Of a stretch of 64,000 nt of DNA, positions 9,803 through 31,691 are shown piece after piece (within the stretch, counting starts at the first letter, position 1; every line of letters starts with the position of its first letter). The stretch comes from Alloalcanivorax gelatiniphagus (GTDB taxonomy: Bacteria > Pseudomonadota > Gammaproteobacteria > Pseudomonadales > Alcanivoracaceae): NCBI RefSeq assembly GCF_005938655.1, contig NZ_VCQT01000022.1, positions 1 to 64,000 of the forward strand, read 5' to 3'. Position numbers and translations under genes: made by a program. The notes under the pieces are model-generated. The model saw nothing but the letters and a program-made list of their open reading frames with translations, did no database searches and was not told the origin of the DNA.

Positions 9803-9837
9803 TACCAGGCGCTCGCCGACCTCCGCCTCGATGCTCC
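9803..9837 (-). pseudogene. Glycosyltransferase 3'-end remnant (copy a)
   Basis: About 34 bases beginning ACCAGGCGCTCG match the conserved 3' segment found at 11637, 23436, 26070 and 28677 with roughly three mismatches by eye. It sits at the extreme left end of the mosaic, immediately before the Rpn remnant. Confidence 0.45.
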
Positions 9838-9851
9838 AGGCGACCGGATCG

Positions 9852-10365
9852 CTAGTGGAACACCTGCTCCAGCGAGCCCGCGTCGTAGAACCGATCGATC
9901 CAGTCTTCCAGCTGCTCCAGCGGTGCCTGGTCCAACCGTTCGCGCACCTCCGCCGGCAATGTGCCGAAACGCCGGGCCAGCAGGCGTGAGAGAATCAGGC
10001 GTGCCTCGATGGTGGAGCCTTCCTGGCGGCCTTCCTGGCGGCCTTCCTGGCGGCCTTCTTGACGGCCTTCTTGACGGCCTTCCTCGCGGCCCTCTTGCAG
10101 GCCCTCTCGCCGGTACTGTGCTTTCCATTCCTTAATGCGATCTTCGAGCATGGTGTCGGCCTCCTCCAGGCTGTGTATGCTTTGCCAATCCAACGATGGG
10201 TCGAGGCTCTCGCCCCGGCGGCGTTGTCCATTATATAAAACAATCGGCAAAACCAGTGGCAGAGCGCCACCTCGTTCCACTTCGCCGCGTCGAATCAGGT
10301 TCTGGATCCCGCACCATCTCCTTGTGCGCGAACAGCAGCTTGTAGCCGGTGTCATGCTGTGCCAT
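9852..10365 (-). pseudogene. Rpn-family (YhgA-like PD-(D/E)XK) nuclease, internally deleted
   Basis: The ATG at 10365 begins MAQ followed by HDTGYKLLFAHKEMVRD, the signature N-terminus of Rpn recombination-promoting nucleases/transposase_31. After about 20 codons the frame is broken, and the sequence resumes in another frame at IQNLIRRGEVERGG...LPLVLPIVLYNG, which in intact relatives lies about 100 residues later. The catalytic centre between them is therefore missing. The C-terminus is intact, including a glycine/glutamate repeat and an RLILSRLLARRFG helix. Intact family members are about 300 residues. This copy cannot make an active nuclease. Confidence 0.8.
10017..10100 (-). repeat. 12-bp minisatellite encoding (GRQE)n in the Rpn remnant
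   Basis: Near-perfect 12-bp units GGCGGCCTTCCT/GACGGCCTTCTT run in tandem and, on the minus strand, encode GREEGRQEGRQEGRQEG. Such EG-rich repeats are a common feature of Rpn C-termini and would vary in number by slippage. Identical units with no spacers exclude a CRISPR array. Confidence 0.75.
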
Positions 10366-10462
10366 CCCTCGCCCCCAAATACTGACCTTATGACCAGTAT
10401 AATCAGCAAGCGGGCCAGCATCTGTCAGCCAAAACGGAAAAGGATGTAAGCCAAAGCGGACG
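10292..10462 (-). repeat. Boundary repeat copy A (Rpn 5' end plus upstream)
   Basis: 171 bases nearly identical to 11409-11579 (copy B) and partly to 21302-21460 (C) and 23299-23400 (D). It contains the first about 22 codons of an Rpn gene, its GGGGGCGAGGG ribosome site, a TGACC-TTA-TGACC direct repeat, and a conserved block from CAGCAAGCGGGCCAGCATCT to AAGCGGACG. In copies A and B it flanks the TA module on both sides. Confidence 0.8.
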
Positions 10463-10498
10463 GCGGCACCAACAAATGGCAAGAGCCGGTGGTGGTGA

Positions 10499-11077
10499 TC
10501 AGCTCACCAGGAGCTGTTCAGCCTTTTGGATTAACTCAGGGGCAGCGGCACGGCTCTGGTGGTATTCCTTGGTGCTGTTCAGCATTCGTATCGCGGAAGC
10601 CAGCGTGATAAGCGATTGCGCAGGCTCTGATGTCGCCTGAATTTTCCGATTGTCCATCATCCATGCGAGAACTTCATCCGCGTGCCAAAGGGGGGTGCCT
10701 CCGGATACCCGGGGCGACGGGAATCGCGTGGCGGTTCTTTTCACTTCACCTTTCGCATACTTACGCATCGCCTGCCGGGTGACTTTTGCCAGCCTGTCCG
10801 TCATCAGCTCGGCGAGCTCAGATAAATTAAGCAAATCCGGCCCTGCAGAGACCAATCGCGCTTCTGGGATAGCCGTTTTTACGTCTCGCACGGCGGTTTG
10901 CAGCGCTTCCCAGGCGGTCGGCGCTTCTCGGTTGAAGTCGAGGGACAGATAGCCGTGGGAGGCGAGACCAACCAAGGCATCGTCACAGCCTGCCTCGAAC
11001 AGAGCGTCCAGCCAGAGTTCGGGGTCGGCCTCGCCGTCAGGAAGCTGAAAATGAAGCTGGAATTCAAACGTACTCAT
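10499..11077 (-). CDS. HTH antitoxin of HicA-like TA pair, copy X1
   Basis: 192 residues. The middle (LAELMTDRLAKVTRQAMRKY...RFPSPRVSGGTPLWHADEVLAWM) looks like an AlpA/MerR-type DNA-binding domain with the P-x-P...W...EVLAW pattern. The N-terminal 60 residues resemble an antitoxin dimer domain. Its start overlaps the toxin stop by 4 bases (toxin first). A second copy at 20558-21136 differs by only four residues (A/V in NREAPTAW, D/E in MMDN, S/P in ATSEP, I/M in ELIQ). It probably binds the operator at 11367-11386. Confidence 0.7.
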   Translation of the reverse strand: MSTFEFQLHFQLPDGEADPELWLDALFEAGCDDALVGLASHGYLSLDFNREAPTAWEALQTAVRDVKTAIPEARLVSAGPDLLNLSELAELMTDRLAKVTRQAMRKYAKGEVKRTATRFPSPRVSGGTPLWHADEVLAWMMDNRKIQATSEPAQSLITLASAIRMLNSTKEYHQSRAAAPELIQKAEQLLVS

Positions 11078-11331
11078 TCCCCACCTCCGGTGTACTTACA
11101 CTTTTCCACCCATTTAATGATAGCTCGCGCATGGGCCTCCGCGTTCCTGGGCGTGGACCAGACCCCATTTCGGCAGAACTTGCCACAACGGCACTCGGGG
11201 TCATTGTTCGGGCACTCAAGAACACCCCAGGCGTGTGCACTTTTGCCGGCCTTTCGCACCGTCCACCCTCTGGCTTCAGCATACTGAAGCGCCTTTTCGA
11301 TGGCCGCCTTGGGATGCTTTCCACGCGCCAT
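11074..11331 (-). CDS. HicA-like small toxin, copy X1 (intact)
   Basis: 85 residues from the ATG at 11331, preceded by GGGGGAAGATCGAT. It starts MARGKHPKAAIEKALQYAE and continues GWTV...SAHAWGVLECP, with a Cys cluster CPNNDPECRCGKFC and an ending STPRNAEAHARAI. I recall this WGxLxCPxxDxxCxCGxFC, STPRN pattern as a widespread small-toxin family related to HicA, always beside an HTH gene. HicA proteins are mRNA interferases; the activity here is inferred. An in-frame upstream ATG at 11376 lies inside the operator and is rejected as the start. Confidence 0.65.
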   Translation of the reverse strand: MARGKHPKAAIEKALQYAEARGWTVRKAGKSAHAWGVLECPNNDPECRCGKFCRNGVWSTPRNAEAHARAIIKWVEKCKYTGGGE

Positions 11332-11366
11332 ATCGATCTTCCCCCAAAACCTATCGGCTCTCATAT

Positions 11367-11386
11367 TTGTTGTCAAGCGACAACAA
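11367..11386. promoter_or_regulatory. Operator of HicA-like TA pair X1
   Basis: A perfect 8-bp inverted repeat TTGTTGTC-AAGC-GACAACAA lies 36 bases upstream of the toxin ATG. The same palindrome, with AAGT in the centre, occurs upstream of the second copy at 21259-21278. Conservation of both arms supports a binding site for the HTH antitoxin. Confidence 0.65.
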
Positions 11387-11408
11387 TTCGATGGGATCGA
11401 GCCTTAGA

Positions 11409-11596
11409 GAATCAGGTCCTGGATCCCGCACCATCTCCTTGTGCGCGAACAGCAGCTTGTAGCCGGTGTCATGCTGTGCCATCCCTCGCCCCCAGATACT
11501 GACCTTATGACCAGTATAATCAGCAAGCGGGCCAGCATCTGTCAGCCAAAACGGAAAAGGATGTAAGCCAAAGCGGACGCAGGCTTGGGGGGTTAC
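11409..11596 (-). repeat. Boundary repeat copy B
   Basis: Nearly identical to copy A (10292-10462), including the MAQ-HDTGYKLLFAHKEMVRD start of an Rpn gene that then runs into unrelated sequence. It continues right into CGCAGGCTTGGGGGG, a junction shared with copies C and D. In B and D this junction abuts the glycosyltransferase fragment; in C it abuts the AbiEii gene. Confidence 0.8.
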
Positions 11597-11941
11597 GGGC
11601 GGGCGCCCTCCAGGCAATCCAACGCCGCCCGCACCACCAGGCGCTCGTCGAACTCCGCCTCGATGCGCCGGCGGGCGGCCTGCCCCGCCGCCGCCAGGGT
11701 CTCGCGGGGCAACGCGAGGCCGTCCTGCATACAGGCGGCCAGGGACTCGACCACGCCCGCCTCCCGCCAGCGCGCCACCTCGTCCGGTGGGATGGCACTG
11801 CTGTTGCTCACCCCCTGCGGCCCGATCAGCAGAAAACGCACGTCCGGACGCCGCCAGGCCACCTGAGCGGCGGCGGCCACGTACTCCCGCACGCCCTTAT
11901 CACCGATCAGCCGCGCCACCATCACAAAGGTGAACGGCCCC
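11597..11941 (-). pseudogene. Glycosyltransferase 3'-end fragment (copy b) with in-frame internal deletion
   Basis: Encodes a piece from MVARLIGDKGVREYVAAAAQ to ...[21 protein letters not shown]. Compared with the copies at 23.4 and 26.0 kb, 204 bases (68 codons) are missing exactly between two ACTCG pentamers (the equivalents of 26183-26187 and 26387-26391), which removes the nucleotide-sugar-binding E-x7-E region. The right edge joins directly onto the stop of the wzx gene (11942). It has no proper N-terminal domain and cannot be a working enzyme. Confidence 0.85.
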
Positions 11942-13225
11942 TCAGTACGCGGTAGCGGCCAACGTTTTTCTTACCAGCCAGAACTTGACGATGGCGTTAC
12001 AGCCGTACGCAAGGCTCGTGGCCAAGGCCGCGCCGATAATGCCGTTACTCGGAATCAGAAGGAGGTTGGCCAGGATATTGATGGTCACCGTACCGAGTGC
12101 CACATACATATTCCACTCAGGCTTGCCGGCGGCCGCGATACAGCTGGATTGAACGCGGGCACCCGCCCCGGCGATGATTCCGGGTAGCAGCCATACAAAA
12201 GCCGGCCATGCTTCCTGATACTGCTCCCCAAATACGGGAGCGACCAGCCAATACAATGCGCCTGCGGCTGCTCCGCCCAACAACGCCGTGAGGCCCGCCA
12301 CGGCCCAGAACCCTTTGTTGGTCAGTGCCAATCTACCCATGGGGTCGGCGTGCATGGCGGCAAGTCGGGGAAGCAGCACGCTGCATACCGCTTGTGAAAG
12401 CATCCAGAGCTTTTCGGCTATCTGGACGGCAATAACGTAGATACCCGTGGCGACAGGCGTTAGAAAGAGATTCACCAGAAAAATGTCGGCACGATAGTTC
12501 ACAAACGTCAGGACGTTTGATAGATGGGCCTTCCAGCCGTAACTCAGAATCTTTCGACCGTATTGAGCATATCCCTGAGTGGCGTTCGGTGCAGGGTCCG
12601 CTCTCTGCGCCTGTAGAACCAGGGCGAGAGCCAGCATCACACCGGCAACCTGGGCAACCAGGTAAGCCATCATTGCCCCCGCCACGCCACCATCCAGCAG
12701 AAAAAGCGCTATGACAATACCCGCAAGGTTCGCGAACGGAGGACACAATACGGTTAAGTTATAGGCCTTGAAGTTCTCCTTACCCTGCAGGATCACAGTC
12801 AAGTACGCCATCAGAAGCGTGAGAGGAAAGCTGATCAAACCGATGTATAGCAACAGCGTCGGAACCCCGGGAAACAGCGTCTTCCCCCAGATCCAGACCA
12901 CTGGTAACGCTACGGCGATGCCCACGCAAGACACTGTAAAGGCGAGCCGCACGTTGCCAAACAGAGCTTCCCGGACGCTCAAATCTCGGCGACTTACATA
13001 ATAGACCGTGGCGGGCCCCACACCGAAATTCAGGAAATTGGCCAGCAGAGACGGCAACAATACCGCCATTGCGTAGAAACCGTTGCCTTCGGGCCCAAGG
13101 TGTCGGGCGATCAGTACGACCAGAAAGAGCTGTGCAAGTGCCGCTAAAAGCTGGCGCCCTAGCGTCATGCCGACATTACGTCTGACGGAGGACGAAAACG
13201 TACTCTGCTTTAACCTGCCGAACAT
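11942..13225 (-). CDS. wzx: Wzx-type polysaccharide flippase (MATE/MOP superfamily)
   Basis: 427 residues with about 12 membrane helices. The N-terminus NVGMTLGRQLLAALAQLFLVV...RHLGPEGNGFYAMAV is typical of oligosaccharide flippases in the polysaccharide-synthase family. These proteins move undecaprenyl-diphosphate-linked repeat units to the periplasmic face. The ATG at 13225 is chosen because it is where homology should start; an extension to 13369 would overlap the next gene by more than 120 bases. Four-base-scale gaps to the HprK-like gene indicate an operon. The window also holds an ABC-type flippase (42.8-44.7 kb). Confidence 0.88.
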   Translation of the reverse strand: MFGRLKQSTFSSSVRRNVGMTLGRQLLAALAQLFLVVLIARHLGPEGNGFYAMAVLLPSLLANFLNFGVGPATVYYVSRRDLSVREALFGNVRLAFTVSCVGIAVALPVVWIWGKTLFPGVPTLLLYIGLISFPLTLLMAYLTVILQGKENFKAYNLTVLCPPFANLAGIVIALFLLDGGVAGAMMAYLVAQVAGVMLALALVLQAQRADPAPNATQGYAQYGRKILSYGWKAHLSNVLTFVNYRADIFLVNLFLTPVATGIYVIAVQIAEKLWMLSQAVCSVLLPRLAAMHADPMGRLALTNKGFWAVAGLTALLGGAAAGALYWLVAPVFGEQYQEAWPAFVWLLPGIIAGAGARVQSSCIAAAGKPEWNMYVALGTVTINILANLLLIPSNGIIGAALATSLAYGCNAIVKFWLVRKTLAATAY

Positions 13226-13245
13226 CCTGTGGATTTTCCCTTTCT

Positions 13246-14364
13246 TTATGTAAGAAGGCGACGGGTCACTTCGTTGACCCTCTTTTGATAAGCCACGTGA
13301 TCCACGATCACGGGAATTTCCAGCTTTTCGGATTGTTTCGAAAAAGCCTGGCCATATATCGTCTTCCACTTATCTGATACATCACTCATGGTGATATGGG
13401 GCACGGCACCGCAAGCGAGCGCGTTGTACTTTTCCCAATTTATGAACTTGTGGAAGACCTGATATTCAGCACTCATCACCTCAAAGGCCAGGTCCACTGA
13501 GGCCTCCCTACTCAGATTCTGCAGGCTCATGGTTTCTACGTCATTTTTTATCAGGAAGCACACTTCTTTTAGTTGGCAGCCATCGGCAATGCAGCTCTCA
13601 AATAGCTGATTTGGCCGCATCTTCCTTCTGACTCTCGAAGGATTTCTTTTATTCTTGATATGAAAGTGAAGCCTGTTAAGAAAATTTCGACCAGCAAGAA
13701 TCCTCTTCTCCAGACCATTGCCGACACAGTTGTATCCATAGATTTTTGGCCAGGCCATATTCCCGTAGACCACGCCATCAGCATCCAGAACTGCGATGTC
13801 GTCTGAGATAAAGGCAACCTCTTCGTTATCGACAAAGGATAGCAATGCGGAAGATTTGCCTACACCGCCCGTACCGGTCAACAACACACATCCGCCCCTG
13901 GTTCCCACGCAGGCCGCATGGATGGGCGCAAGGCCGGGCAAAAAATACACTGTAGGGATAAGGATCAGTTCATGCAGAATCTGCTCGAACCATTCAATCC
14001 GAGAGGGATACTCCATGGATATCAGCTTCTTCAGATAGCCGATCATCGTCCTGTAATTGGGTTCTCTTGCTACCACAAAGACATTCAGTGGCTTTGCACC
14101 AATATTATCCCACGCGACTACCGTCCCGCCGAAATCAACCTGCAGGGCAGTCTCATTTCTTTTGAATATCTTGGGATTGTTCGCAAAACCGCTTTCGATA
14201 AACTCTTCGTCAATGAAAGAGACGATCACGTCCGGATCATCCTCTTCCACGGACGTATACAGATCCAGCGAAGCACTCAGGCAGTCCTGCCATCGCCCAT
14301 CGGATACGAATCGGAAATTTCTACCGAATATTTTTTTATTGAGCTGGTACGCACCTGAGTTCAT
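13246..14364 (-). CDS. HPr kinase/phosphorylase-like P-loop protein of a polysaccharide locus
   Basis: 372 residues. The C-terminal half contains GTGGVGKSS (Walker A, 164-172) preceded by LAPIHAACV, and FISDDIAVL (185-193), the layout of the HprK C-terminal kinase domain (H before the P-loop and a DD after it). The N-terminal half is not recognised. True HprK phosphorylates Ser46 of HPr; stand-alone homologues in polysaccharide and lasso-peptide loci have uncertain substrates. It lies between a glycosyltransferase gene and wzx, 5-20 bases from each, so it is part of that operon. Its target may be a sugar precursor or regulator; unknown. Confidence 0.7.
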   Translation of the reverse strand: MNSGAYQLNKKIFGRNFRFVSDGRWQDCLSASLDLYTSVEEDDPDVIVSFIDEEFIESGFANNPKIFKRNETALQVDFGGTVVAWDNIGAKPLNVFVVAREPNYRTMIGYLKKLISMEYPSRIEWFEQILHELILIPTVYFLPGLAPIHAACVGTRGGCVLLTGTGGVGKSSALLSFVDNEEVAFISDDIAVLDADGVVYGNMAWPKIYGYNCVGNGLEKRILAGRNFLNRLHFHIKNKRNPSRVRRKMRPNQLFESCIADGCQLKEVCFLIKNDVETMSLQNLSREASVDLAFEVMSAEYQVFHKFINWEKYNALACGAVPHITMSDVSDKWKTIYGQAFSKQSEKLEIPVIVDHVAYQKRVNEVTRRLLT

Positions 14365-14369
14365 GTTGA

Positions 14370-15617
14370 TTAAGCCTTACCCGATATCCGTTCCACAGCA
14401 TCAACGAATGCTGGATAGTTCCTATTGGCATTGAAGTATTCTTCTATATGCCGCCTGGCTGACTCCGCCATGACCTCTCTGCGCGCCATCGGTGCCAGTA
14501 CACACTCCTCAATAGCGTCCGCGATATCCCGAGGGCCGGGTTCCGACTTCAGCAAACGACCACGCTCATCGGATACCAGACCGGCGACACTGCCGACATC
14601 GGGAGCGATCACCGGTACACCGAAGCTCATGGCCTCCATGATGGAGACCGGCATGCCCTCCGAGGCACTGCTGTTGATGAATACGTCAACGGGGTTGTCC
14701 TCGAAGAATTGTTTCACTCGGTCGTGTTCCAGAGCGCCGGTAAACCGGCATCTCAGGTTTGCCAGGCGCCGGGCTCGGGACTCCGCCTCGGTTTTCAGCG
14801 CTTCGTATAGAGGCCCATGGCCGATGTGCGTCCAGGAGACCGAAAGATCCGGAATTTTCGCCGCGAACTGCTCGACCGCTTCCAGGATTCGATCTATGCG
14901 TTTCACCGGAGCACAAAAAGACAGCGACAGGATATGCACATTCCCTTTCGGGCTCCGCGAGGTCATTGCCGTGCCCACTGGTACACCTAACGGTGCCACC
15001 TGTACGCTTTGTCTTGTGCCACCGAAGCGCGCGTGGAAGTAATCCGCCGCTTCCGCTGACAGGCAGAACACCGTATCAAAACTGTCCACGTACTGGCGTT
15101 TCAAAGGCATATACTCGTGGGCTCGCTCCTCTTCGTAGAGGTCCGCCCGATGCGCCCTAGAGACCACTTTGCCTGGCCACCCTTTTCGCTTCTGCTCACA
15201 AGCCGCGTACGCGGCGGCATTGTTCCAATAGCTGTAGATGACGTCCGTTGGATTGTCGGCAAGGAATCGTTTCAGACGCCTTTCGGCGATTTTAACCTGT
15301 GTGGTTTCTTTCAGGGCCAACCAGACGGTGGCCAGCGTCAGTTTTGCTTGCGAGCGAAGATAGCGGACCTCATTTCTGAAAGTAGCGGAGAACAACGCAC
15401 TGAAAAGCGCGCTGACCATCGCTGCCCTGGGCACTGTTTCGCGAGGCTCCGAAACTTCAAGCCGCTTCGGGACCGGCCTGGGCTCACCGGCTCCCAGGGC
15501 CGGCAAAATGCGGATGTCCTGGAAACCGCTATCGGCCCAATACCCGATTTCATCTTCCAGAAACTGTTCTCCCGGGGGATACGGGTAATTAATGGTCAGC
15601 AACAGCAGACTTGCCAC
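14370..15617 (-). CDS. Glycosyltransferase family 4 (GT-B)
   Basis: 415 residues. It starts MASLLLLTINYPYPPGEQFLEDE, a form typical of GT4 enzymes with an N-terminal acceptor domain. The C-terminal donor domain carries VDVFINSSASEGMPVSIMEAMSFGVPVIA (about residues 310-338), with the E-x7-E pair for the nucleotide sugar. The FCAPVKRIDRILEAV segment is the usual start of that domain. Donor and acceptor cannot be read from sequence. It sits 5 bases upstream of the WbpB gene and 5 bases before the HprK-like gene on the other side. Confidence 0.85.
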   Translation of the reverse strand: MASLLLLTINYPYPPGEQFLEDEIGYWADSGFQDIRILPALGAGEPRPVPKRLEVSEPRETVPRAAMVSALFSALFSATFRNEVRYLRSQAKLTLATVWLALKETTQVKIAERRLKRFLADNPTDVIYSYWNNAAAYAACEQKRKGWPGKVVSRAHRADLYEEERAHEYMPLKRQYVDSFDTVFCLSAEAADYFHARFGGTRQSVQVAPLGVPVGTAMTSRSPKGNVHILSLSFCAPVKRIDRILEAVEQFAAKIPDLSVSWTHIGHGPLYEALKTEAESRARRLANLRCRFTGALEHDRVKQFFEDNPVDVFINSSASEGMPVSIMEAMSFGVPVIAPDVGSVAGLVSDERGRLLKSEPGPRDIADAIEECVLAPMARREVMAESARRHIEEYFNANRNYPAFVDAVERISGKA

Positions 15618-15621
15618 CCGA

Positions 15622-16572
<951 letters not shown>

Positions 16573-16576
16573 CTAC

Positions 16577-17737
16577 TTAGTGCAGTATCCGGCGGGCCAG
16601 TACCGCGTAATCCAGCTTGTTCCGGGCCAGCGCTTCCGCCCTGCCCTTCATGGCGTCCAGATCGGCGGCGCCGGATTGAATCTCTTGCAGTGCCGCGACG
16701 ATACCGGCCTGATCGGTGACCCGCCAGCCGGTTCCGTCGGTATAGATTTCGTGCCCTTCCATGTCTTCCAGAATCAGCGCGCAGCGGCAGCACAGGCTGG
16801 TCTGCATGGTGGACGACTGGCTGCCCGGCTGCAGGTAGACGTCGGCGGCGCACAGCAGCGCTTTCAGTTGCGCCGGGCTTTGCCAGCCCAGGAAGCGCAC
16901 CCGGGGGTCCACCTGAATCAGGGCTTCCGCTTCCTCCCGGACCTCCTCCAGCAGGGAGCCGGCGATCACCAGGCGGAAGTCCGGGTCCGGCACTTCGGCA
17001 AAGGCCCGCAGGGCCTCCAGAATCTTCTTGTGCGAGGCCTGCTTGCCGGACTGCACGAACAGGGTGCCGTGGGCGGGCACCGCCAGGTCCGCCCGGATGG
17101 TCTCGCGCAGCCGCCGGTACTCGTCATCGGGCACCGGATGACCGCCCAGGGGGTAAAATTCCAGCTTGCTGTCCGGTACGCCATAGAAGTCCCGGGCGAA
17201 CCGGCCGGTGAGCGCGGAGATGTACAGGACCCGGTCGATCGCGTTCAGGCAGCGGTGCACGATGGGCCGGTAATACAGGTAGTGCAGGCCCCACTTGGAT
17301 ACCGGGCCCCGGGCGCTGTTGATAAAGTCGGTGTGGGTGTCCACGTAGAACTTCACCTCCGGGTGCGCCTGCTTGTAACGGCGCACCGTGAGCAGCTCCC
17401 AGCCGCACATACCGTGGAACAGGATGGCATCCGGGGCGAACGCTTCCAACAGTTGGTAGACACCGCGATGCACCCGCAGGCTTTTCGCCAGACGGTGGGG
17501 CAGCGCCGGGTGATACGGCAACCGCACCACGTCCACACCGTGGTCATTGCGGTAGCGTCCGGGCGCCACGAATTCCCGCTGGCGCTCGGTATTGAGCACC
17601 TGGGTGGAGGCGATCACCAGCACCTGGTGGCCCTGGCGGGCATGCTCCTCGATCAGCTCGTTTTCCTGGTAGGCCCGGTCGTCCATGTAGTAGTTGGACA
17701 GACACAAATGCGCCACTTTCCTACTCGCCCCGGTCAT
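16577..17737 (-). CDS. Glycosyltransferase family 4, inserted between wbpB and wbpE
   Basis: 386 residues from the ATG at 17737, whose ATGA overlaps the TGA of wbpE (17734-17736). The N-terminus has VAHLCLSNYYMDDRAYQENEL; the donor domain has FVQSGKQASHKKILEALRAF and AADVYLQPGSQSSTMQ in place of the common E-x7-E, so the donor-site acid is altered. The same order (GT between wbpB-like and wbpE-like genes) suggests that it transfers the sugar they make. The donor is otherwise unknown. A much longer upstream reading frame through wbpE is a frame artefact. Confidence 0.85.
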   Translation of the reverse strand: MTGASRKVAHLCLSNYYMDDRAYQENELIEEHARQGHQVLVIASTQVLNTERQREFVAPGRYRNDHGVDVVRLPYHPALPHRLAKSLRVHRGVYQLLEAFAPDAILFHGMCGWELLTVRRYKQAHPEVKFYVDTHTDFINSARGPVSKWGLHYLYYRPIVHRCLNAIDRVLYISALTGRFARDFYGVPDSKLEFYPLGGHPVPDDEYRRLRETIRADLAVPAHGTLFVQSGKQASHKKILEALRAFAEVPDPDFRLVIAGSLLEEVREEAEALIQVDPRVRFLGWQSPAQLKALLCAADVYLQPGSQSSTMQTSLCCRCALILEDMEGHEIYTDGTGWRVTDQAGIVAALQEIQSGAADLDAMKGRAEALARNKLDYAVLARRILH

Positions 17738-19403: not shown

Positions 19404-19444
19404 GAAACTGTCCGCCCCGAATAACAACCGCCTAGGGTACCAGC

Positions 19445-21278: not shown

Positions 21279-21301
21279 ATCCAATGAGATCGAGGCTTAG
21301 A

Positions 21302-23298: not shown

Positions 23299-23400
23299 GA
23301 ACTGATCTTATGACCAGTATAAACAGCAAGCGGGCCAGCATCTGTCAGCCAAAACGGAAAAGGATGTAAGCCTAAGCGGACGCAGGCTTGGGGGGTTACG
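23299..23400 (-). repeat. Boundary repeat copy D
   Basis: Carries the TATGACCAGTATAA block, the conserved CAGCAAGCGGGCCAGCATCT...GGACGCAGGCTTGGGGGG segment and the same right-hand junction as copy B, abutting the glycosyltransferase fragment at 23401. It lacks the Rpn coding part. The 23154-23298 stretch to its left is not recognised. Confidence 0.75.
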
Positions 23401-24058
23401 GGCGGGCGCCCTCGAGGCAATCCAGCGCCGCCCGCACCACCAGCCGCTCGTCGAACTCCGCCTCGATGCGGCGGCGGGCAGCCTGCCCCGCCGCCGCCAG
23501 GGTCTCGGGGGGCAGCGCCAGGCAGTCCTGCATACAGGCGGCCAGGGACTCGGCGCTCTTCACCTCGCACAACCAGCCGGTTTCGCCGTTCACCACCGCC
23601 TGGCGACAGCCAGGCACGTCGGTGACGATGGCGGGCCGGCCCATGGACGCGGCCTCCAGCACCGTGCGCGGCATGCCCTCCCGGTAGGACGGCAGTACCA
23701 GCACATGGCTCTCGGCGATAAAGGGCCGCACATCGTCCTGCTCGCCCAGATACTCGACCACGCCCTCCTCCCGCCAGCGTTCCATCTCCTCCGGCAGGAT
23801 GGCACTGCTGTTACTCACCCCCTGGGGCCCGATCAGCAGAAAACGCACGTCCGGATGCCGCCGAGCCACCTGCGCGGCGGCGGCCACGTACTCCCGCACG
23901 CCCTTATCACCGATCAGCCGCGCCACCATCACAAAGGTGAACGGCCCCTCGGACGGCAACACACTGAACGGGAACCGAACCGTATCCATCCCGGCCCCGG
24001 GCAACAGCACCGTGGGCGTGTCCCTCAGCAGGCCGGTGGCCTGAAAGGTCCGCAGATT
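23401..24058 (-). pseudogene. Glycosyltransferase C-terminal fragment (copy e)
   Basis: Encodes the C-terminal donor domain of a GT4 enzyme, from LRTFQATGLL through FVMVARLIGDKGVREYV and SHVLVLPSYREGMPRTVLEA to AALDCLEGARP and a stop. The N-terminal acceptor domain is absent, with unrelated sequence upstream. Bases 23625-23955 look identical to 26260-26590 by eye. This argues for recent duplication or gene conversion. The E-x7-E donor region is intact, but half the enzyme is missing. Confidence 0.85.
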
Positions 24059-24126: not shown

Positions 24127-25488
24127 TCAGGCGCGCGCCGCCAAAGGGCGGTAAGGCCACGCGTCGTTGCCATCGACCAGATCCTCCGTCTCAATAAGAT
24201 GATTGTTTGCCAGCAAGTTTGTCACCGTGGTGGTACTGACATCGAAATACTCAGCCACCTCATCAATCGCTGAATCCGAATAATCTCCCTGCATGACCGC
24301 TTTCACACCCTCAATCGGACACAGCAATTCCGCCGCGAACGCGCGCTGATATTTTTGCCGGAATGTACCCAGGTCCGAAGAAACGAGCCACCCCTCATCA
24401 TCTCTTCGAAACATACAGTCGCCAAGAAGACGGGCATACTCAAATCGCCGAGCCACGGGATGCTTCTTACGCGGCATGAAACGAATACCCTGCTGATTCT
24501 CCGGGATCGCCACCGACACCCTCGACCGATTTTCCAAGGTATAACCTTTAATAGCGGCGCTGCTAATGCTCAGCGCGTCAAAAAGTGTGCTATTGGGAAT
24601 CGGCTCGAGGCCACACCCTAAGTAATCACGCACAATTTTTGCGTCCTCAACCGCCACCCTCCACGGCGCCTGGGTATCCCCGGCGTCCCCGCGTATGGAA
24701 GTATCCGGAATATTCGGGCGCGCCTGTATGCCGTGCAATTCGAAAAAGCATTCAATCTGCTTCTCATGCTGCACTCCGAACTCGTTACCCTGCGCCAAGG
24801 CGGACATTAACTCCGGCAAGGAGTCCTCGCCAACTGTGGTGGCAAGTTGCGACATGGTCTTCAGAAGTGATTCAGGACATTCCTCTGGGTCGTACCCCAT
24901 CATCGCTTCAAAGGCACGCAGCCGAGCAATCGCTGTATCCGCGGTTTCTTCGCAAATCAGTGTCCAAAGACCCCTGAGTTCCGTATCTTCGCAACCACAT
25001 GCCTGCAGCCTGTTGAGCACCGCATCGATAAGAGCAGAAACGCCCTTACGAAAATCATCCACCGGCACAAAAAACGGGAAACGGGAACCATTCAAGTATC
25101 GGACTGACTGCTCCACACTTTCATCCGATGGCCGGGACCAAAGCTGAATACCCTCGCCATCCGTCGCGAACATAACCGTAGGCCAAATGAAGCCTTGGTT
25201 AGCAGACGCCAGCTCATGGGCCATGCGCCAGGACATCGAGGGCCGCACGCCCTTTCCAGGGTGCGGTTCATACAACAAACGCCACCAGGAAGAGGCTAAC
25301 CAGGACGCCAGGGGATACAATGCTACCAGAACATCGTCCTTGACAGTCCGCGACCAACAATCTTCGTTGCGCGTCAGGGAGTAATTATTAACGGAGAGCG
25401 ACAGCCGTGCCATGGTGTGGTACAACTCAGGCACATCGTTGCCGACCGCCTCCCATTGAAAAGCAAAGTCCAGATGCCTCTCGCTCAT
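24127..25488 (-). CDS. Unknown protein with degenerate ImmA/IrrE-like C-terminal domain
   Basis: 453 residues from the ATG at 25488. The C-terminal 140 residues (RRFEYARLLGDCM...FRQKYQRAFAAELLCPIEGVKAVMQG...IDEVAEYFDVSTTTVTNLLANN) resemble ImmA/IrrE zinc-peptidase domains, including FAAELL and the final helix-turn-helix-like AEYFDVSTTTV. The zinc-binding HExxH helix is replaced by FEYARLLGD, so peptidase activity is not expected. The N-terminal 300 residues are not recognised. Its start overlaps the upstream gene by 4 bases. Lying between two glycosyltransferase fragments in an array of TA/abortive systems, it is a candidate defence or TA component. Confidence 0.6.
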   Translation of the reverse strand: MSERHLDFAFQWEAVGNDVPELYHTMARLSLSVNNYSLTRNEDCWSRTVKDDVLVALYPLASWLASSWWRLLYEPHPGKGVRPSMSWRMAHELASANQGFIWPTVMFATDGEGIQLWSRPSDESVEQSVRYLNGSRFPFFVPVDDFRKGVSALIDAVLNRLQACGCEDTELRGLWTLICEETADTAIARLRAFEAMMGYDPEECPESLLKTMSQLATTVGEDSLPELMSALAQGNEFGVQHEKQIECFFELHGIQARPNIPDTSIRGDAGDTQAPWRVAVEDAKIVRDYLGCGLEPIPNSTLFDALSISSAAIKGYTLENRSRVSVAIPENQQGIRFMPRKKHPVARRFEYARLLGDCMFRRDDEGWLVSSDLGTFRQKYQRAFAAELLCPIEGVKAVMQGDYSDSAIDEVAEYFDVSTTTVTNLLANNHLIETEDLVDGNDAWPYRPLAARA

Positions 25489-25919
25489 GGCTGCCGTGCC
25501 TCCCACTCTCTCAGCACCAGCTCCGCGAACGGGTCCGTCGGAGGCAGAGGGTACCCATGATATGCCCCCGTCATCCGATTCTCCAATTGTGCCTCCAATA
25601 CATCACCATTCTCGGTAACGGCCCATACCTTTTGCGGCCAGTCGCCTCGGAACTGTCTGCTTATCAACCCCCGACCGATCCCTTCTCGTAATAGTTTACC
25701 GGCCACTTCTTTTCTGAAAATTTTCGCCACATCGCATAAGGATTTAGCAGGGTGCGGCGCGGATGGCGGAGTTAATCCGAAATCGCCCGGGTTTTTCTTG
25801 TGGGCAGGATTACCACAATAAACAGCAGATTCTTTCAGCGACGCAATATTGATATCCACCAGCTCCTCCGGCGAGCAGATTCGTCGCTTGCTACTGTATC
25901 TGTCCCCACCAACGCGCAT
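25485..25919 (-). CDS. Unknown partner of the ImmA/IrrE-like gene
   Basis: 144 residues, not recognised. A motif AVYCGNPAHKKNPGDFGLTPP (about residues 32-52), with Cys and His, precedes a helix-rich segment SLCDVAKIFRKEVAGKLLREG and a basic stretch GLISRQFRGDWPQKVWAV. It ends with WEARQP. The 4-base ATGA-type overlap with the downstream gene shows that they work together. I recall the CGNP.HK.NPGDFGLTPP motif in small proteins beside similar large genes, but no function is known to me. Confidence 0.6.
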   Translation of the reverse strand: MRVGGDRYSSKRRICSPEELVDINIASLKESAVYCGNPAHKKNPGDFGLTPPSAPHPAKSLCDVAKIFRKEVAGKLLREGIGRGLISRQFRGDWPQKVWAVTENGDVLEAQLENRMTGAYHGYPLPPTDPFAELVLREWEARQP

Positions 25920-26043
25920 GGCCTGTGCTCGGGCAATAAAACAATGGATTAGCGAATGATCGCGATAGCTCTGAAGGCTGTCAATGAAGATCCGACAACC
26001 GGCAGAGCGGCACCTGCCAATCCAGATTTATGTTGGCTTACCG

Positions 26044-26624
26044 GCCGTCAGGCAATCCAACGCCGCCCGCACCACCAGGCGCTCGTCGAACTCCGCCTCG
26101 ATGCGCCGGCGGGCGGTCTGCCCCGCCGCCGCCAGGGTGTCGCGGGGCAACGCCAGGCAGTCTTCCATACAGGCAGCCAGGGACTCGGCGCTCTTCACCT
26201 CGCACAGCCAGCCGGTTTCGCCGTTCACCACCGCCTGGCGGCAGCCGGGCACGTCGGTGACGATGGCGGGCCGGCCCATGGACGCGGCCTCCAGCACCGT
26301 GCGCGGCATGCCCTCCCGGTAGGACGGCAGTACCAGCACATGGCTCTCGGCGATAAAGGGCCGCACATCGTCCTGCTCGCCCAGATACTCGACCACGCCC
26401 TCCTCCCGCCAGCGTTCCATCTCCTCCGGCAGGATGGCACTGCTGTTACTCACCCCCTGGGGCCCGATCAGCAGAAAACGCACGTCCGGATGCCGCCGAG
26501 CCACCTGCGCGGCGGCGGCCACGTACTCCCGCACGCCCTTATCACCGATCAGCCGCGCCACCATCACAAAGGTGAACGGCCCCTCCGACGGCAAGGCACT
26601 GAACGGGAACCGCGCCGTATCCAT
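26044..26624 (-). pseudogene. Glycosyltransferase C-terminal fragment (copy f)
   Basis: Starts in frame at MDTARFPFSALPSEGPF and runs to AALDCLTAGKPT. It lacks about 190 N-terminal residues. It abuts the acyltransferase gene (12 bases) on its right and the ImmA-like pair on its left. The left edge of homology is near the DCL codons, as in all copies; the right edge differs from copies b, e and g. Confidence 0.85.
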
Positions 26625-26635
26625 CTAGTGAAACC

Positions 26636-28621
26636 CTAGTCATGCCTGAACGGATTCCCCACCTCGCTGGCATAAATCTCCCCGATAAGCATTGAGCCTT
26701 TATAATTCAGGTGATTGCTATCTTTGTAGAGCGGCAAACCATCCAACTCTGAATAGCACCAACTCTGATCGCACATGACTTTAGCCGGATCGATCACGAC
26801 CAAGCTATCGAATTCTTCGGTCAATGAGTCCAGCAAAGCAGACCAACCAGCGAACTTCTCTTCGTACTCTTTTCTAGGCAGATTGCATTCTTCGTTTTTT
26901 CCAAAGCGGAGATTATTTAAAGTGCACCTAGACACATTCCGGTCGAAAGTCGGAGCGCCTTTGACGATAATGGGAACAGCGCCCGATTCGATAACCGCTT
27001 GCACGGTCGCGAGCATTGCTGCTTTCATAACGGCAGGAGTCTCGGCGTGGCTCGGTGCGTTGCCACCATCGCTTAAAAGACCTTTATAGTAGCCGACATA
27101 AGACCCCGCCATAACGACGTAGTCATAGCCTTTAGGGATTATGTCGTTTCTCAGCACTTCATTTCGAGTCCTGAAATTACCGTGCTTTACGATTTCACCG
27201 TCCCTTTCATAATAGCGATCAACGCCCACCATGAATGCCGTATTGCTTTGAGTTATATCATAAGCTCTCAACCCGGCCTTAGAAGCCAGGACATCGATCA
27301 TTCCTGAAAAATGGTTCGCATGGGAGTCACCAACAAGCAAGATGTCAACTCCCTGCTTCTTCTTTCCCAAAATACATTGGTCTGGCCCCAATGGAGCCGC
27401 TACAGGCCCTTCATTGCATCGCCCCCTCTCAAGGTCGGCATGAGCCAGGACCGCTGCGGCCTTCTGGTTCAGCGCCTCGTCAAATCTTGAGGGAAAGCCG
27501 TTAAAGAAGAAAACGGACAAGCAAAACAGAACTGAAAGCATGGCTGGCATCACAAACCCAGTGACCGCAACTTTTCCAATTCCAGAATTTCGAAATCGAC
27601 GCGCCGGCTTTTCTATTCCAACATATGTCGCAGCGGAAAGCAGCATAGTAGCGACAACTACTGCCGCGCCCACAAACAAATTAATTTCTATAAGACACAG
27701 GTTTAAAAAAGCGATGAGCGGCCAATGCCAAAGGTAGGCGGGGTAAGATATCTTCCCCACACCGACGAAAACGCGACTGGCCAAGACTCTTCCCAACAGC
27801 GGGTCGTCCTGACGAACAAATATTATGATCAATGCCGTGCCCAGGCAGGGCACCAAAGCGTGAAGCCCAGGGAACCAAGTCGCCCCAGAGAAGGATAAGC
27901 AAGCATAGACGACCAAGCAGAGCCCTAAACAACCGCCTAATACTTGGATAGGCCGAGGGAACCACCTATATATGCTCTCTGCCGAAAACGCTAAAGCCGC
28001 GCCGATCAATAGCTCAAAGGCACGCGCAGGCATCAGGTAGTACGCGGCAGCACGGTAGTGAATCGCCCCGTACTCCGATACGGCAAGAGCCAGCAGCAGA
28101 AGAACCAAGATGACGCCTAGGAGCCTACCCTTTGCGCCTAAAAAATGCATAAGGACCAGCAGTGATGCAGGCCAGACCAGATAGAATTGCTCCTCGACAG
28201 CCAGAGACCAAAGGTGCAGCAGAGGAGTAGTGTCCGCGCCAGTACCGAAGTAGCCGCCAACGGCGTGCCACATATAAAAATTTGCGGCAAAGAAAGTAGA
28301 GAAAAGAGCGCTTTCAGAGAACTGCTCCAGCTCTGCCGGCAGCATAATAATGGCTGAAAGCAGCCCGGTGAAGAAAAGCACCGTGAAATAAGCCGGTGCC
28401 AATCTGATAATACGCCGCCTGTAGAAACTTGAAATACTGAAGGCGCCAATTTGCTTTTCGGACTTGATGATTTCGGTGATCAAGTATCCAGATATGACAA
28501 AGAAGACATCCACCCCGACGTAGCCGCCCCCAAAACCAGGCACGCCGAGATGATTGAAAATTACAATCATCACGGCAACGCAACGAAGACCATCAATTTC
28601 GGGTCTGTAAGCTATCGACAT
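26636..28621 (-). CDS. OafA-type O-acyltransferase (acyltransferase-3 plus SGNH domain)
   Basis: 661 residues. The N-terminal 10-helix acyltransferase-3 domain begins YRPEIDGLRCVAVMIVIFNHLG (H24 is the conserved catalytic His) and includes FYRRRIIRLAPAYF (66-79). It is followed from about residue 390 by a periplasmic SGNH domain with GDSHANH (about 431) and a late DSNHLN (about 640) supplying Asp and His. It would acetylate the polysaccharide in the periplasm. It occupies a cassette between two glycosyltransferase fragments, with 12 bases on each side. Confidence 0.9.
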   Translation of the reverse strand: MSIAYRPEIDGLRCVAVMIVIFNHLGVPGFGGGYVGVDVFFVISGYLITEIIKSEKQIGAFSISSFYRRRIIRLAPAYFTVLFFTGLLSAIIMLPAELEQFSESALFSTFFAANFYMWHAVGGYFGTGADTTPLLHLWSLAVEEQFYLVWPASLLVLMHFLGAKGRLLGVILVLLLLALAVSEYGAIHYRAAAYYLMPARAFELLIGAALAFSAESIYRWFPRPIQVLGGCLGLCLVVYACLSFSGATWFPGLHALVPCLGTALIIIFVRQDDPLLGRVLASRVFVGVGKISYPAYLWHWPLIAFLNLCLIEINLFVGAAVVVATMLLSAATYVGIEKPARRFRNSGIGKVAVTGFVMPAMLSVLFCLSVFFFNGFPSRFDEALNQKAAAVLAHADLERGRCNEGPVAAPLGPDQCILGKKKQGVDILLVGDSHANHFSGMIDVLASKAGLRAYDITQSNTAFMVGVDRYYERDGEIVKHGNFRTRNEVLRNDIIPKGYDYVVMAGSYVGYYKGLLSDGGNAPSHAETPAVMKAAMLATVQAVIESGAVPIIVKGAPTFDRNVSRCTLNNLRFGKNEECNLPRKEYEEKFAGWSALLDSLTEEFDSLVVIDPAKVMCDQSWCYSELDGLPLYKDSNHLNYKGSMLIGEIYASEVGNPFRHD

Positions 28622-28649
28622 GTCTTCCCCAGATTAAGTGTTGTTTTTC

Positions 28650-29305
28650 GGCAAACAGTCCAACGCCGCCCGCACCACCAGGCGCTCGTCGAACTCCGCC
28701 TCGATGCGGCGGCGGGCGGCCTGCCCCGCCGCCGCCAGGGTCTCGGGGGGCAGCGCCAGGCAGTCCTGCATGCAGGCGGCCAGGGACTCGGCGCTCTTCA
28801 CTTCACACAACCAGCCGGTTTCGCCGTTCACCACCGCCTGGCGGCAGCCGGGCACGTCGGTGACGATGGCGGGCCGGCCCATGGACGCGGCCTCCAGCAC
28901 CGTGCGCGGCATCCCCTCCCGGTAGGACGGCAGCACCAGCACATGGCTCTCGGCGATAAAGGGCCGCACATCGTCCTGCTCGCCCAGGTACTCCACCGCG
29001 CCCTGCTCCCGCCAGCGCGCCACCTTGTCCGGCGGGATGGCACTGCTGTTGCTCACCCCCTGGGGGCCGATCAGCAGAAACCGCACGTCCGGATGCCGTC
29101 GGGCCACCTGAGCGGCGGCGGCCACGTACTCCCGCACGCCCTTATCACCGATCAGCCGCGCCACCATCACAAAGGTGAACGGCCCCTCGGACGGCAACGC
29201 ACTGAACGGGAACCGCACCGTATCCATCCCGGACCCGGGCAACAACGTCGTAGGCGTGTCTTCCAGCAGGCCGGTGGCCTGGAAGGTCCTCAGATCTTCT
29301 TCGTT
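28650..29305 (-). pseudogene. Glycosyltransferase C-terminal fragment (copy g)
   Basis: The longest fragment: homology begins at NEEDLRTFQATGLLEDTP, corresponding to QNEEDLVVFREAGLL in the intact gene at 30.6 kb, and runs to AALDCL, then PKNNT and a stop. The N-terminal domain is absent; sequence further upstream is a ligase remnant. It is closer to copies e and f than to the intact neighbour, so the donor was a different allele. Confidence 0.85.
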
Positions 29306-29310: not shown

Positions 29311-29740
29311 CTAGGCGGAGTCGCACATATCAAGCCGCAGGCTAGCGGAAGTGCTAGTATCGCCGTCCGTCACGAAACCATACGGACCCGCCAGGGAGTC
29401 CGCCATATGAGGCTCCATAAGCGTCCAGGCGACCGCCACGCCACCAGGCAAAACAACCACGCCAAACCCCTGAGCGCCAATGGAAGCGCACGCCAAAGCC
29501 CCCGTACCCAGCGGCCTCGCCAGGCCAGCACGCACGCCATGACCAATAGCAACGTAATCCAGCTGCCCAAGTCCCGGACAACAGGGAAGCAACCAAGCCC
29601 ATTACGGCAGCGGCGAAAAAAGAGCGCGCCCGCGTGCGGCTCGCCCGCCAGAACAGTCCCCAAGCGCCGACAAACCGCCAAAGCATACTACTGTTGCCTA
29701 ATCTATGAAATTCGAGAAAATAGGCCAAACCAACATTGGT
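29311..29740 (-). pseudogene. O-antigen ligase remnant, frameshifted
   Basis: Two overlapping frames together resemble the middle of the ligase at 4870-6126: MGLVASLLSGTWAAG (compare LGLVASLLSGTRGG) in one frame, then GSWITLLLVMACVLAWRGRWVRGLWRALPL (compare GGWVTLPAVALMLAAWRGGALWRGW) in the next. The N- and C-terminal parts are missing. It is a decayed ligase or polymerase. It fills the stretch 29311-29740 between the last fragment and the sulfotransferase. Confidence 0.65.
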
Positions 29741-29834
29741 AAGAGAAAAAAGAGGAGGGGGGAAGGACGCAACTTAAGGTTTCGCTGCCGCTCAATCCTG
29801 TCGATTACTCTTCAATTTCAGCCTTGGTGGACTC

Positions 29835-30542
29835 ATGCTGACAGTAAAGGACAAGGTAGAAATATCTATAAAAAATTTTCAATTCGAAAAGCAAATACCA
29901 AGCGTACTTTACCGCGCATTATGGCCCAACGGTAATCCCATGATACCAGCATTCAAGGCAAGAAAATGCATATTTATTCATATACCAAAAGCCGCCGGGA
30001 GCAGTGTATCCAATGCTCTTTTCGGTGAAGCTGTGGGCCACAGACCAATACGCCGCCACGCAGCATACTCTCCCGATATTATAAATGACTTCTACAAATT
30101 TACTTTTGTAAGGAACCCTTGGGACAGACTCTACTCAGGATATCACTACTTTTATCGTTGTGTCGGAATGAACGCCCATAGAGACCACAGGTGGGCAAAT
30201 GAATTTTTATCGGAGCTAACCACTTTTGAAAAGTTCATACATAAACTCGAGAACCCCAAATTTTTAAAAACCATAAAAAAATATGACCATTTTAGAGATC
30301 AGCGAGACTGGCTGTACGATCCTACATCTGGAAAAAATCTGATTGATTTCGTAGGTCGATTCGAGAACCTGGATAATGATTTTGAAATCATTTGCAATCA
30401 TCTTGGTATGACACGGACACTACCACATGAGCGTAGAGGAAGCGGGGAGAATTTTCGTGATTATTACACAAAAAAAATGATCAGCATTGCTGCCGACGCT
30501 TACAAAAGTGATATCACAGAGCTTTTATACGAATTTGATTAG
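29835..30542 (+). CDS. Carbohydrate sulfotransferase (Sulfotransfer_2 type)
   Basis: 235 residues. The 5'-phosphosulfate loop FIHIPKAAGSSVSNALF (47-63) and the 3'-phosphate-binding FVRNPWDRLYSGY (91-103) are clear. They mark a PAPS-dependent sulfotransferase acting on glycans. No signal peptide is seen, so it would act in the cytoplasm on the lipid-linked or nucleotide-linked sugar. The ATG at 29835 is used; an in-frame ATG at 29940 is an alternative. It is the only plus-strand gene of the locus interior and is strongly AT-rich, so a late insertion is likely. PAPS could come from CysC at 57.7 kb. Confidence 0.85.
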   Translation: MLTVKDKVEISIKNFQFEKQIPSVLYRALWPNGNPMIPAFKARKCIFIHIPKAAGSSVSNALFGEAVGHRPIRRHAAYSPDIINDFYKFTFVRNPWDRLYSGYHYFYRCVGMNAHRDHRWANEFLSELTTFEKFIHKLENPKFLKTIKKYDHFRDQRDWLYDPTSGKNLIDFVGRFENLDNDFEIICNHLGMTRTLPHERRGSGENFRDYYTKKMISIAADAYKSDITELLYEFD

Positions 30543-30557
30543 GAGAAAATTTCCGCA

Positions 30558-31691
30558 CTAATCGGCAGATTTATTTCTATAACAAAAACCCGAGAGGCAA
30601 TCCATATAGGCTTTAACTACAACACGTTCACTAAAATGTGCCTCCATTCTTTGCCGTGCGGCATAACCGACATACGACACCTCCTTTCTGCTCATCATGG
30701 TTATCTTTCGCATCTGCTCAGCTAGCGACGCCTCATTACGCACTTCACAAAACCAACCTGTTTTTCCGGACTCAACCGCCTGTCGGCAACCCGGCACATC
30801 CGTCACAATAGCAGGGCGCCCCATAGCCGCCGCCTCCAGCACAGTCCGGGGCATGCCTTCACGGTATGACGGCAAGACCAACACATGGGATTCAGAAATC
30901 ACCGGACGCACATCATTGGTGGCACCGCGATATTCCAGAATTCCCTCAGCGTGCCAGTTATCCACTTCCTCCTTACTGACAGCACTGTGATTACTAATTC
31001 CCAATGGCCCCACCAGCAAACAACGGGCAGGAACGCCATTGTTCTTGAGGATACGGCAAGCGCCAGCATACTCACGCACCCCTTTGTCACCGATCAAGCG
31101 GCCAATCATGACAAAGGTCAGTACCCCATCTTCCGGTAGCGACTGATAGGCAAAACCATAAAGATCCACACCTGAACCGGGCAACAATGTCACAGGCGTA
31201 TTACCAAGCAAACCGGCCTCCCGAAACACCACCAAGTCTTCCTCATTCTGGAAGAAAAGATGGTTCGCTCTACTGTTTATCCAGCCATACACCTGCCGAA
31301 CCCGACGGAAAAGCCATGAATCATGGATAAAAGCGGTACCCAGCCCTGAGATATTATTAGCAAAAGGGATTCGCAATAATTTACATAAAAGACCACCATA
31401 AAGGTTTAGCTTTATCGTGAAATTGAAAACGAAAACAGGCTTGTAGCGACGGAAAGTCTGCCAAATAAACAGCATACTTCGAAGCTCCTGCATCAGCCCG
31501 GTACTTTTCCCCTCCATCGGCAAGGCAATGTACTCAACACCTAAATCATTAACCAATTGGAAACTAAAATCGTCTTGCGGCGACATGCAAACAACACGAT
31601 AACCCTGATCCCGTAACGCACGGATTGTGCTTTTTCGGAAATTGTAGAGATACCAAGATGTGTTGGAAGTCAGAAAAACAGCCTGCATCAT
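30558..31691 (-). CDS. Glycosyltransferase family 4, intact copy (PglA/WbpX-like)
   Basis: 377 residues from the ATG at 31691 (a TTG at 31700 is less likely). It has the full GT-B layout: QAVFLTSNTSWYLYNFRKS at the N-terminus, GLGTAFI mid-protein, FVMIGRLIGDKGVREYAGA and VLVLPSYREGMPRTVLEAAAMG (E-x7-E). It is an undecaprenyl-linked glycan GT; the N-terminal pattern is shared with PglA, which adds GalNAc. It is the only complete member of the family that was truncated repeatedly to its left, but its sequence is clearly diverged from those fragments. Confidence 0.87.
   Translation of the reverse strand: MMQAVFLTSNTSWYLYNFRKSTIRALRDQGYRVVCMSPQDDFSFQLVNDLGVEYIALPMEGKSTGLMQELRSMLFIWQTFRRYKPVFVFNFTIKLNLYGGLLCKLLRIPFANNISGLGTAFIHDSWLFRRVRQVYGWINSRANHLFFQNEEDLVVFREAGLLGNTPVTLLPGSGVDLYGFAYQSLPEDGVLTFVMIGRLIGDKGVREYAGACRILKNNGVPARCLLVGPLGISNHSAVSKEEVDNWHAEGILEYRGATNDVRPVISESHVLVLPSYREGMPRTVLEAAAMGRPAIVTDVPGCRQAVESGKTGWFCEVRNEASLAEQMRKITMMSRKEVSYVGYAARQRMEAHFSERVVVKAYMDCLSGFCYRNKSAD

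Follow-up and report, generated by a model that had tools for sequence, protein, structure and literature searches.

How could toxin-antitoxin, defence and surface-glycan genes come to lie in a row at the end of a polysaccharide locus, separated from one another by broken pieces of one glycosyltransferase (GT) gene? The question is raised by a 64-kb stretch of DNA from the marine bacterium Alloalcanivorax gelatiniphagus (bases 1-64000 of contig C15, NZ_VCQT01000022.1, in a 4.2-Mb draft genome of 50 contigs), hereafter the window, in which an Alloalcanivorax-group genome has its Wzx/Wzy-type polysaccharide locus. Some 21 kb of cassettes lie between the intact GT4 gene of the present cluster and a beta-CASP metallo-beta-lactamase-fold (MBL) gene, and they are punctuated by remnants of another allele of the same GT. 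An earlier reading of the bare sequence, here called the original prediction, had placed at least seven partial minus-strand copies of a GT4 gene in this region, and self-BLAST and a family search bore it out: seven minus-strand remnants of 31-672 bp begin at or within a few bases of the predicted positions, with different cassettes between them. We consider it probable that the array arose by sequential displacement of the cluster-end GT without an integrase, the remnants serving as homology arms. The remnants and the intact gene are:

9804 to 9842, minus strand: GT remnant a, 31-38 bp, 84-90% identity, E 2.2e-4, the weakest of the seven
11593 to 11943, minus strand: GT remnant b, with one internal deletion at 11736-11749 and the natural stop codon kept
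19553 to 19622, minus strand: GT remnant c, diverging right after DCL, one half of a split fragment
20485 to 20539, minus strand: GT remnant d, 55 bp, the other half of the fragment split from c
23396 to 24057, minus strand: GT remnant e, running through the stop codon into the spacer
26028 to 26625, minus strand: GT remnant f, with its own tail after DCL
28634 to 29305, minus strand: GT remnant g, with its own tail after DCL and a stop just before the acyltransferase start
30558 to 31691, minus strand: intact GT4 that belongs to the present cluster and lies downstream of EpsG/wzy, with 57% amino acid (aa) identity to the remnants

Over 573-640 bp the DNA identity in self-BLAST was 96.7% for e/f, 93.9% for e/g and 94.1% for f/g, far beyond chance; the same comparison returned b in two pieces, c as 66 bp and d as 55 bp. 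The intact GT matched remnant e at 61% identity in a repeat search and at 67-75% over the BLAST-aligned parts, and in the rest of its own genome the sole further GT DNA match outside the window was a 69-bp piece (80%) on contig C22. The intact diverged copy is thus present as predicted; it is not, however, the source allele of the remnants. The right (5') edges differ among all seven remnants, as had been claimed for five of them, and those of e, f and g do so down to the base. The edges of e, f, g and the long remnants of the sister species A. marinus (genome G002) also differ from one another, except that e shares its edge with its A. marinus counterpart; read by eye, those of e, f and g show no long homology to the adjoining DNA. 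On the 3' side a common left edge near the codons for DCL had been proposed, and it holds at base level for c, f and g, which diverge directly after these codons into three different tails. It fails for b and e, which continue through DCLEGARP and the stop codon and stay alike for ~113 bp more, b extending into the 5' part of an Rpn-like gene and e only into the spacer before that gene. As remnant a ends short of the DCL edge and b and e pass it, a fixed 3'-end integration site was rejected. The DCL edge of c, f and g may instead be the end of the conserved coding part, since g encodes the same D-C-L by other codons and its tail passes directly into the acyltransferase gene. Two internal deletions, one in b and one beside the module M06 described below, lie by eye at 5-bp microhomologies. 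In all this the region matches a sequential-displacement array, which is marked by a series of displaced 3' ends from a single gene family, all in the same orientation and with differing 5' edges.

The spacer that follows the GT stop codon occurs four times in the window, three times together with the 5' part of the Rpn-like gene; the original prediction had listed none of the four copies:

9852 to 10291, minus strand: 3' part (DUF4351 domain, PF14261) of an Rpn/YhgA-like gene, internally deleted and nearest the conserved flank, compared with the 318-aa Rpn open reading frame (ORF) of a second sister species, G003
10292 to 10462, minus strand: GT-Rpn spacer with Rpn 5' part, copy 1
11385 to 11592, minus strand: GT-Rpn spacer with Rpn 5' part, copy 2, contiguous with GT remnant b
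21278 to 21468, minus strand: GT-Rpn spacer with Rpn 5' part, copy 3, the AbiEii 3' end joined at the GT stop codon
23301 to 23395, minus strand: GT-Rpn spacer, copy 4, without an Rpn part, contiguous with GT remnant e

Because the 318-aa Rpn ORF of G003 (PF04754 plus DUF4351) stands behind the outermost GT remnant, the old gene order was probably GT, spacer, Rpn, flank. Rpn/YhgA-like nucleases have a recombination-promoting role, and the likeness here consists of the ORF at the flank end in G003 and broken pieces in the window and A. marinus; the difference is that there is no sign of Rpn acting at this locus, where the gene may simply be the ancestral downstream gene.

Between the remnants of the window lie the following cassettes:

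10499 to 11376, minus strand: candidate defence pair PDC-M06B/M06A, copy 1 (PADLOC 1.1e-48 and 1e-34)
11942 to 19424, minus strand: older glycan block with wzx, an HprK-like gene (weak), two GT4 genes, Gfo/Idh and a hexapeptide acetyltransferase
19863 to 20432, plus strand: acetyltransferase-like (GNAT-like) gene inserted into a GT remnant, with a small ORF upstream seen by eye
20558 to 21247, minus strand: PDC-M06 copy 2, its M06A short by ~160 bp
21457 to 23153, minus strand: AbiEii/AbiEi, profile-supported
24127 to 25919, minus strand: two-gene cassette (proteins of 459 and 144 aa) with a weak likeness to ImmA/IrrE, matching A. marinus at 99.75% identity between the GT arms
26636 to 28621, minus strand: AT3-SGNH acyltransferase, from a profile scan

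We compared the locus across related genomes, each species being represented by one genome. In a family DNA search 15 of 46 genomes had some match to the GT, and more than one close copy was present in the window genome, A. marinus and G003 only; G059 has two short GT pieces at 68% and 86%. Arrays of GT remnants are thus found in 2 of the 12 other genus genomes, and their cassettes are partly different, as the comparison proposed in the original prediction had anticipated. The window holds the acyltransferase, the two-gene cassette, AbiE, M06 twice, the GNAT-like gene and the glycan block; A. marinus has the same two-gene cassette, PemK/MazF and M06; and G003 has M06, the GNAT-like gene and a variant of the glycan block. 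In G003 the order is intact GT, spacer/Rpn start, M06, GT d, GNAT-like gene, GT c, glycan block, GT remnant, Rpn, flank. The intact GT of this genome (371 aa) is 84% identical in aa sequence to remnant g and keeps the spacer, the Rpn 5' part and M06 behind it. In A. marinus the active cluster is followed by GT f', the two-gene cassette, GT e', PemK/MazF, GT m, spacer/Rpn start, M06, a residual GT/spacer/Rpn start and the flank; no intact close GT is left there, the best other listed match being at 34% aa identity. GT m is the unsplit form of the fragment which the GNAT-like gene cuts into c and d in the window and G003, and in A. marinus the site of the GNAT-like cassette is thus empty. All three genomes join M06 to GT in the same way. 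The window has two such junctions: one carries a deletion that A. marinus has too and that by eye lies at a 5-bp microhomology, and the other has the G003 form. As it holds both types, the window array seems to be a concatenation of two arrays. Other stages of the displacement series are thus present in the two sister species. Halomonas cerina and H. stenophila carry one intact GT each (68% and 66% identical) in the order asn-wzy-GT-ugd, with no second copy within the 10-kb flanks. In G003 a 222-bp epimerase fragment between wzx and a GT remnant (C23:252052-252272, L033) matches window 45287-45508 at 88.7%, so other glycan genes leave remnants too. The same genome has, adjoining the other locus flank, a second and more diverged MBL gene copy (C23:274984-276438, L034; 80% aa identity to that of the window), which looks like a leftover from an older cluster boundary.

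That these pieces have taken part in recombination is best seen where the window is set against A. marinus. Between arms e and f there are 5 mismatches in 1991 bp (99.75% identity), against 29/643 in arm e (95.5%) and 39/577 in arm f (93.2%), a contrast with the cassette at Fisher 1.3e-23; in the flanks the identity is 93.4% on the right and 83-92% on the left. The two-gene cassette therefore moved recently, and the GT arms have a separate history. Within the window, e and f share an identical tract of 338 bp spanning 39 consecutive segregating sites, a run reached in 0 of 20000 shuffles, and their counterpart pair in A. marinus has no identical stretch longer than 57 bp. This test reorders the segregating sites at random and takes no account of differences in rate along the gene; applied to the nine remaining pairs, it yielded p 5e-5 for window f against A. 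marinus f (a run of 19 sites, located at the f tail that the two share), 0.04 for f against g of the window, and at least 0.1 for the rest. The ratio of non-synonymous to synonymous divergence (dN/dS) among the five long remnants was 0.13-0.26 in pairwise comparison, and that between the intact GTs of G003 and G004 was 0.21. Because such ratios reflect purifying selection, the divergence among the remnants arose in working GT genes and not in a duplicated dead fragment. Both the dN/dS values and the mosaic pattern point to different donor alleles rather than to local duplication, the likeness of e and f being partly due to conversion or duplication. The window and G003 also have 14560-21179 in common: 65 of 6620 positions differ, one of them within 19619-21179, and in remnant c the count is 3 of 66.

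Our explanation runs as follows. An earlier cluster would have ended in the GT4 gene, followed by the spacer, the Rpn-like gene and the conserved flank. DNA from relatives would have joined through homology at or close to the GT at one end and by an illegitimate join at the other. The old GT would thereby have been truncated on its 5' side, at points that varied, and what was left of its 3' end, together with the cassette behind it, would have moved towards the flank. Once several remnants had gathered, they could have become dispersed homology arms for cross-species exchange of toxin-antitoxin, defence and glycan cassettes by ordinary homologous recombination, and would have converted each other and shrunk by small deletions. 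That the joining was one-sided, in what order the events came and how the DNA entered, by natural transformation or conjugation, are inferences; retention of the toxin-antitoxin genes may have been helped by their addictive nature. If this is true, surface-glycan type and phage-defence content would change in linked steps. We hold to be rather unlikely a further step, in which the array is a self-extending, integrase-free cassette platform where each import brings and leaves a GT piece as the next homology arm, so that the GT docks and couples capsule switching to cross-species defence turnover.

Several observations weigh against giving the GT so central a part. The flanks that bound the comparison are:

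7209 to 8603, minus strand: beta-CASP MBL gene, conserved flank, found in 11/13 genus genomes
47147 to 49357, minus strand: Wzc/Wzz-type kinase, the other conserved flank, found in 13/13 genus genomes

Alternative cassettes lie between these two genes, and contents differ among the genus intervals compared. More than one close GT copy is confined to 3/13 genus and 3/46 family genomes, and four genus members without GT remnants carry AbiE, M06, ParDE, HipA or PrlF/YhaV modules at or beside the locus, so GT arms are not needed for acquisition. In G001 the wzc-MBL interval, split over contigs, has AbiE, M06, an HD gene and a nucleotidyltransferase gene; in G005 it has ParDE and an HTH/HipA pair, and in G006 AbiE and ParDE. 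In G004 the single intact GT lies beside a wecA-like block, outside the interval, and has PrlF/YhaV, RelE-like/HTH, GNAT and PIN genes nearby. Among the genus members without GT remnants, the scan for toxin-antitoxin and defence genes covered these four; for the interval of G012, judged by eye alone, no toxin-antitoxin gene was seen among the listed genes. The claim that the GT gene itself is the hot spot therefore falls: the hot spot is the end of the locus, and GT remnants are one of the sorts of punctuation there, the sort for which recombination is clearest. Nor does every exchange boundary lie in a remnant of the cluster-end GT, since the block shared with G003 begins within the 3' end of a different GT4 gene and stops in M06A. 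The high identity to A. marinus enters e by 47 bp only and stops within ~10 bp of the DCL edge of f, so crossovers would have to lie almost at the cassette itself; the contrast between arms and cassette is equally well explained if the arms were converted later, and the identical e/f tract may have been duplicated at insertion instead of being converted afterwards. ComEC is present in the window genome, but ComEC alone is common (10/14 control genomes), and linkage of a recombinase to the left could be judged in the sister species only, the window contig ending there. As an observation apart, the intervals of other genus members contain short direct and inverted repeats between modules, some in tandem (L067 7699-7839, 10454-10517 and 13032-13486; L059; L060; L061; L062), which are perhaps repetitive extragenic palindromic (REP)-like.

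These points lend some weight to a rival in which the wzc-to-MBL interval itself is the hot spot, cassettes entering by any route and clusters being swapped through the conserved flanks, with the GT remnants as passive litter. The four remnant-free genomes with modules at or beside the locus, and the several remnant-free intervals that hold other short repeats, agree with it, yet the drop of identity at both GT arms and the 338-bp e/f tract show that the remnants recombine, and we hold this rival to be unlikely. Misassembly of a repeat-rich draft contig would be a natural worry, given 50 contigs and repeats of several hundred bp at 93-97% identity; it is very improbable, since the order e-cassette-f recurs in A. 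marinus, and c-GNAT-like-d-M06 and b-spacer-M06 recur in G003, all in separate assemblies. The joins of g to the acyltransferase and of b to wzx were seen in the window alone.

Two further readings have hardly any probability left. One is local tandem duplication of a single truncated GT with genes inserted later, which the 94-97% identity of e, f and g and their single orientation might suggest; the different 5' edges and tails, the dN/dS of 0.13-0.26, the other orders in the sister species and arms less similar than the cassette between them contradict it. The original prediction had named such a duplication, and left edges varying at base level, as findings that would tell against it; the former is contradicted, and the latter is what b and e show against c, f and g. 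The other reading is that integrative elements inserted at the GT 3' end and regenerated it, as at tRNA genes. The edge shared by c, f and g right after DCL and the toxin-antitoxin and defence genes in the cassettes would suit it, but b and e run past that edge, fragment lengths range over 31-672 bp, no common short att-like repeat lies at both ends of those cassettes whose edges were read, and the intact GT is not the source allele. Nor is a tyrosine recombinase linked to the fragments, a link which the original prediction had asked to be sought, on the array contigs of the window, A. marinus or G003; serine recombinases were not searched as a family. In keeping with the claim that the window has no integrase, no tyrosine recombinase was found there, the left side being searchable for 9.8 kb only before the contig ends; the nearest of the five in the genome on this contig is at C15:187553, ~123 kb beyond the right end. 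In A. marinus the only one on the contig of the array is at C54:12465, 137 kb from it, and none of the six in G003 is on the 320-kb contig of the array. Among the window proteins scanned, which are not every ORF and were not searched for serine recombinases, no transposase was found except the Rpn remnant. The phage collection gave no match and the plasmid collection one record over 2% of the query (window 18926-19383), and a phage or plasmid origin was rejected on these grounds. A chromosomal integron differs in that the repeats here are coding GT sequence; it was rejected, as no integron integrase passed the TIGR02249 cut-off in the three array genomes G000 (the window genome), G002 and G003, which 0 of 14 control genomes passed either. 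On a contig of G003 other than that of the array, a 180-aa frame (C34:41860-42264) matches the N-terminal part of integron integrases at E 3.5e-40, below the cut-off. Of the original proposal of integration into, or recombination at, the GT, recombination is upheld by the cassette/arm contrast and the e/f tract, and the fixed 3' site with 3'-end regeneration is not.

Strings of displaced 3' ends of one gene are familiar from the orphan 3' modules of Rhs and contact-dependent inhibition (CDI) systems, in which it is the gene's own toxin end that varies; here separate genes do. The closest parallel to sequential displacement of the cluster-end GT lies in the effector arrays of the type VI secretion system (T6SS) of Vibrio cholerae, in which new modules are reported to displace the 3' gene and the old 3' parts with small genes to be shifted downstream, the arrays being mosaic and spread by homologous recombination, with homology-facilitated illegitimate recombination as a proposed mechanism (PMC5361080). 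The displaced gene here is a polysaccharide GT and not a toxin, and the genes kept (toxin-antitoxin, candidate defence and glycan genes) are unrelated to it. In the minimal mobile elements of Neisseria, alternative whole-gene cassettes between conserved genes are taken in by homologous recombination (PMC3082526). The mode of exchange is alike, but the arms there are two conserved genes, and here many broken copies of one gene lie between the cassettes, so that cassettes add up. Homology-facilitated illegitimate recombination, with homology on one side and an illegitimate join on the other, was measured with test DNA in a further study (PMC3240628); the GT edges suggest the same pattern, of which we see the footprint only. 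In the open-licence literature, judged by title and start of abstract, we found no description of such a GT array or of this locus. The present data give a base-level view of how defence and toxin-antitoxin genes can build up at a surface-glycan locus, and be moved there, with no tyrosine recombinase linked to it, and carry the displacement model of T6SS effectors over to polysaccharide loci.

Besides the wzc-type kinase, the active cluster comprises ugd, an epimerase, an ABC protein, an asparagine synthase-like gene, EpsG/wzy (31704-32744) and the intact GT4. Next to the latter lies:

29835 to 30542, plus strand: sulfotransferase (PF03567)

From remnant g to the sulfotransferase (29311-29742) no gene was recognised, the ORFs there being unscanned. 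As for the cassette labels of the original prediction, AbiE, the acyltransferase, wzx and the sugar genes stood, the supposed toxin-antitoxin pair at 10499-11376 turned out to be PDC-M06B/A, and the ImmA/IrrE-like and HprK labels matched weakly. The 459-aa protein of the two-gene cassette reached PADLOC RmrA at E 5e-4 and capP at E 0.002; neither protein of the cassette had a Pfam match at 0.001, and the 144-aa protein had no PADLOC match. For the HprK-like gene, TIGR00679 (E 8e-5) and PF07475 (E 8e-4) both fell below cut-off, and the gene at 19863-20432 gave a weak GNAT match (E 0.088) and matched a solved N-acetyltransferase structure at E 0.8. The M06 region is present twice (10458-11120 and 20517-21179, 96.5% identity), and 20173-21179, including M06B, is 99.9% identical to G003 over 1007 bp. 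The older glycan block also holds what we take, from its unscanned sequence, to be an aminotransferase gene, and its hexapeptide acetyltransferase (18926-19383) has a 79% DNA match to the conjugative Diaphorobacter plasmid NZ_CP065407.1, where it is annotated as an acyltransferase.

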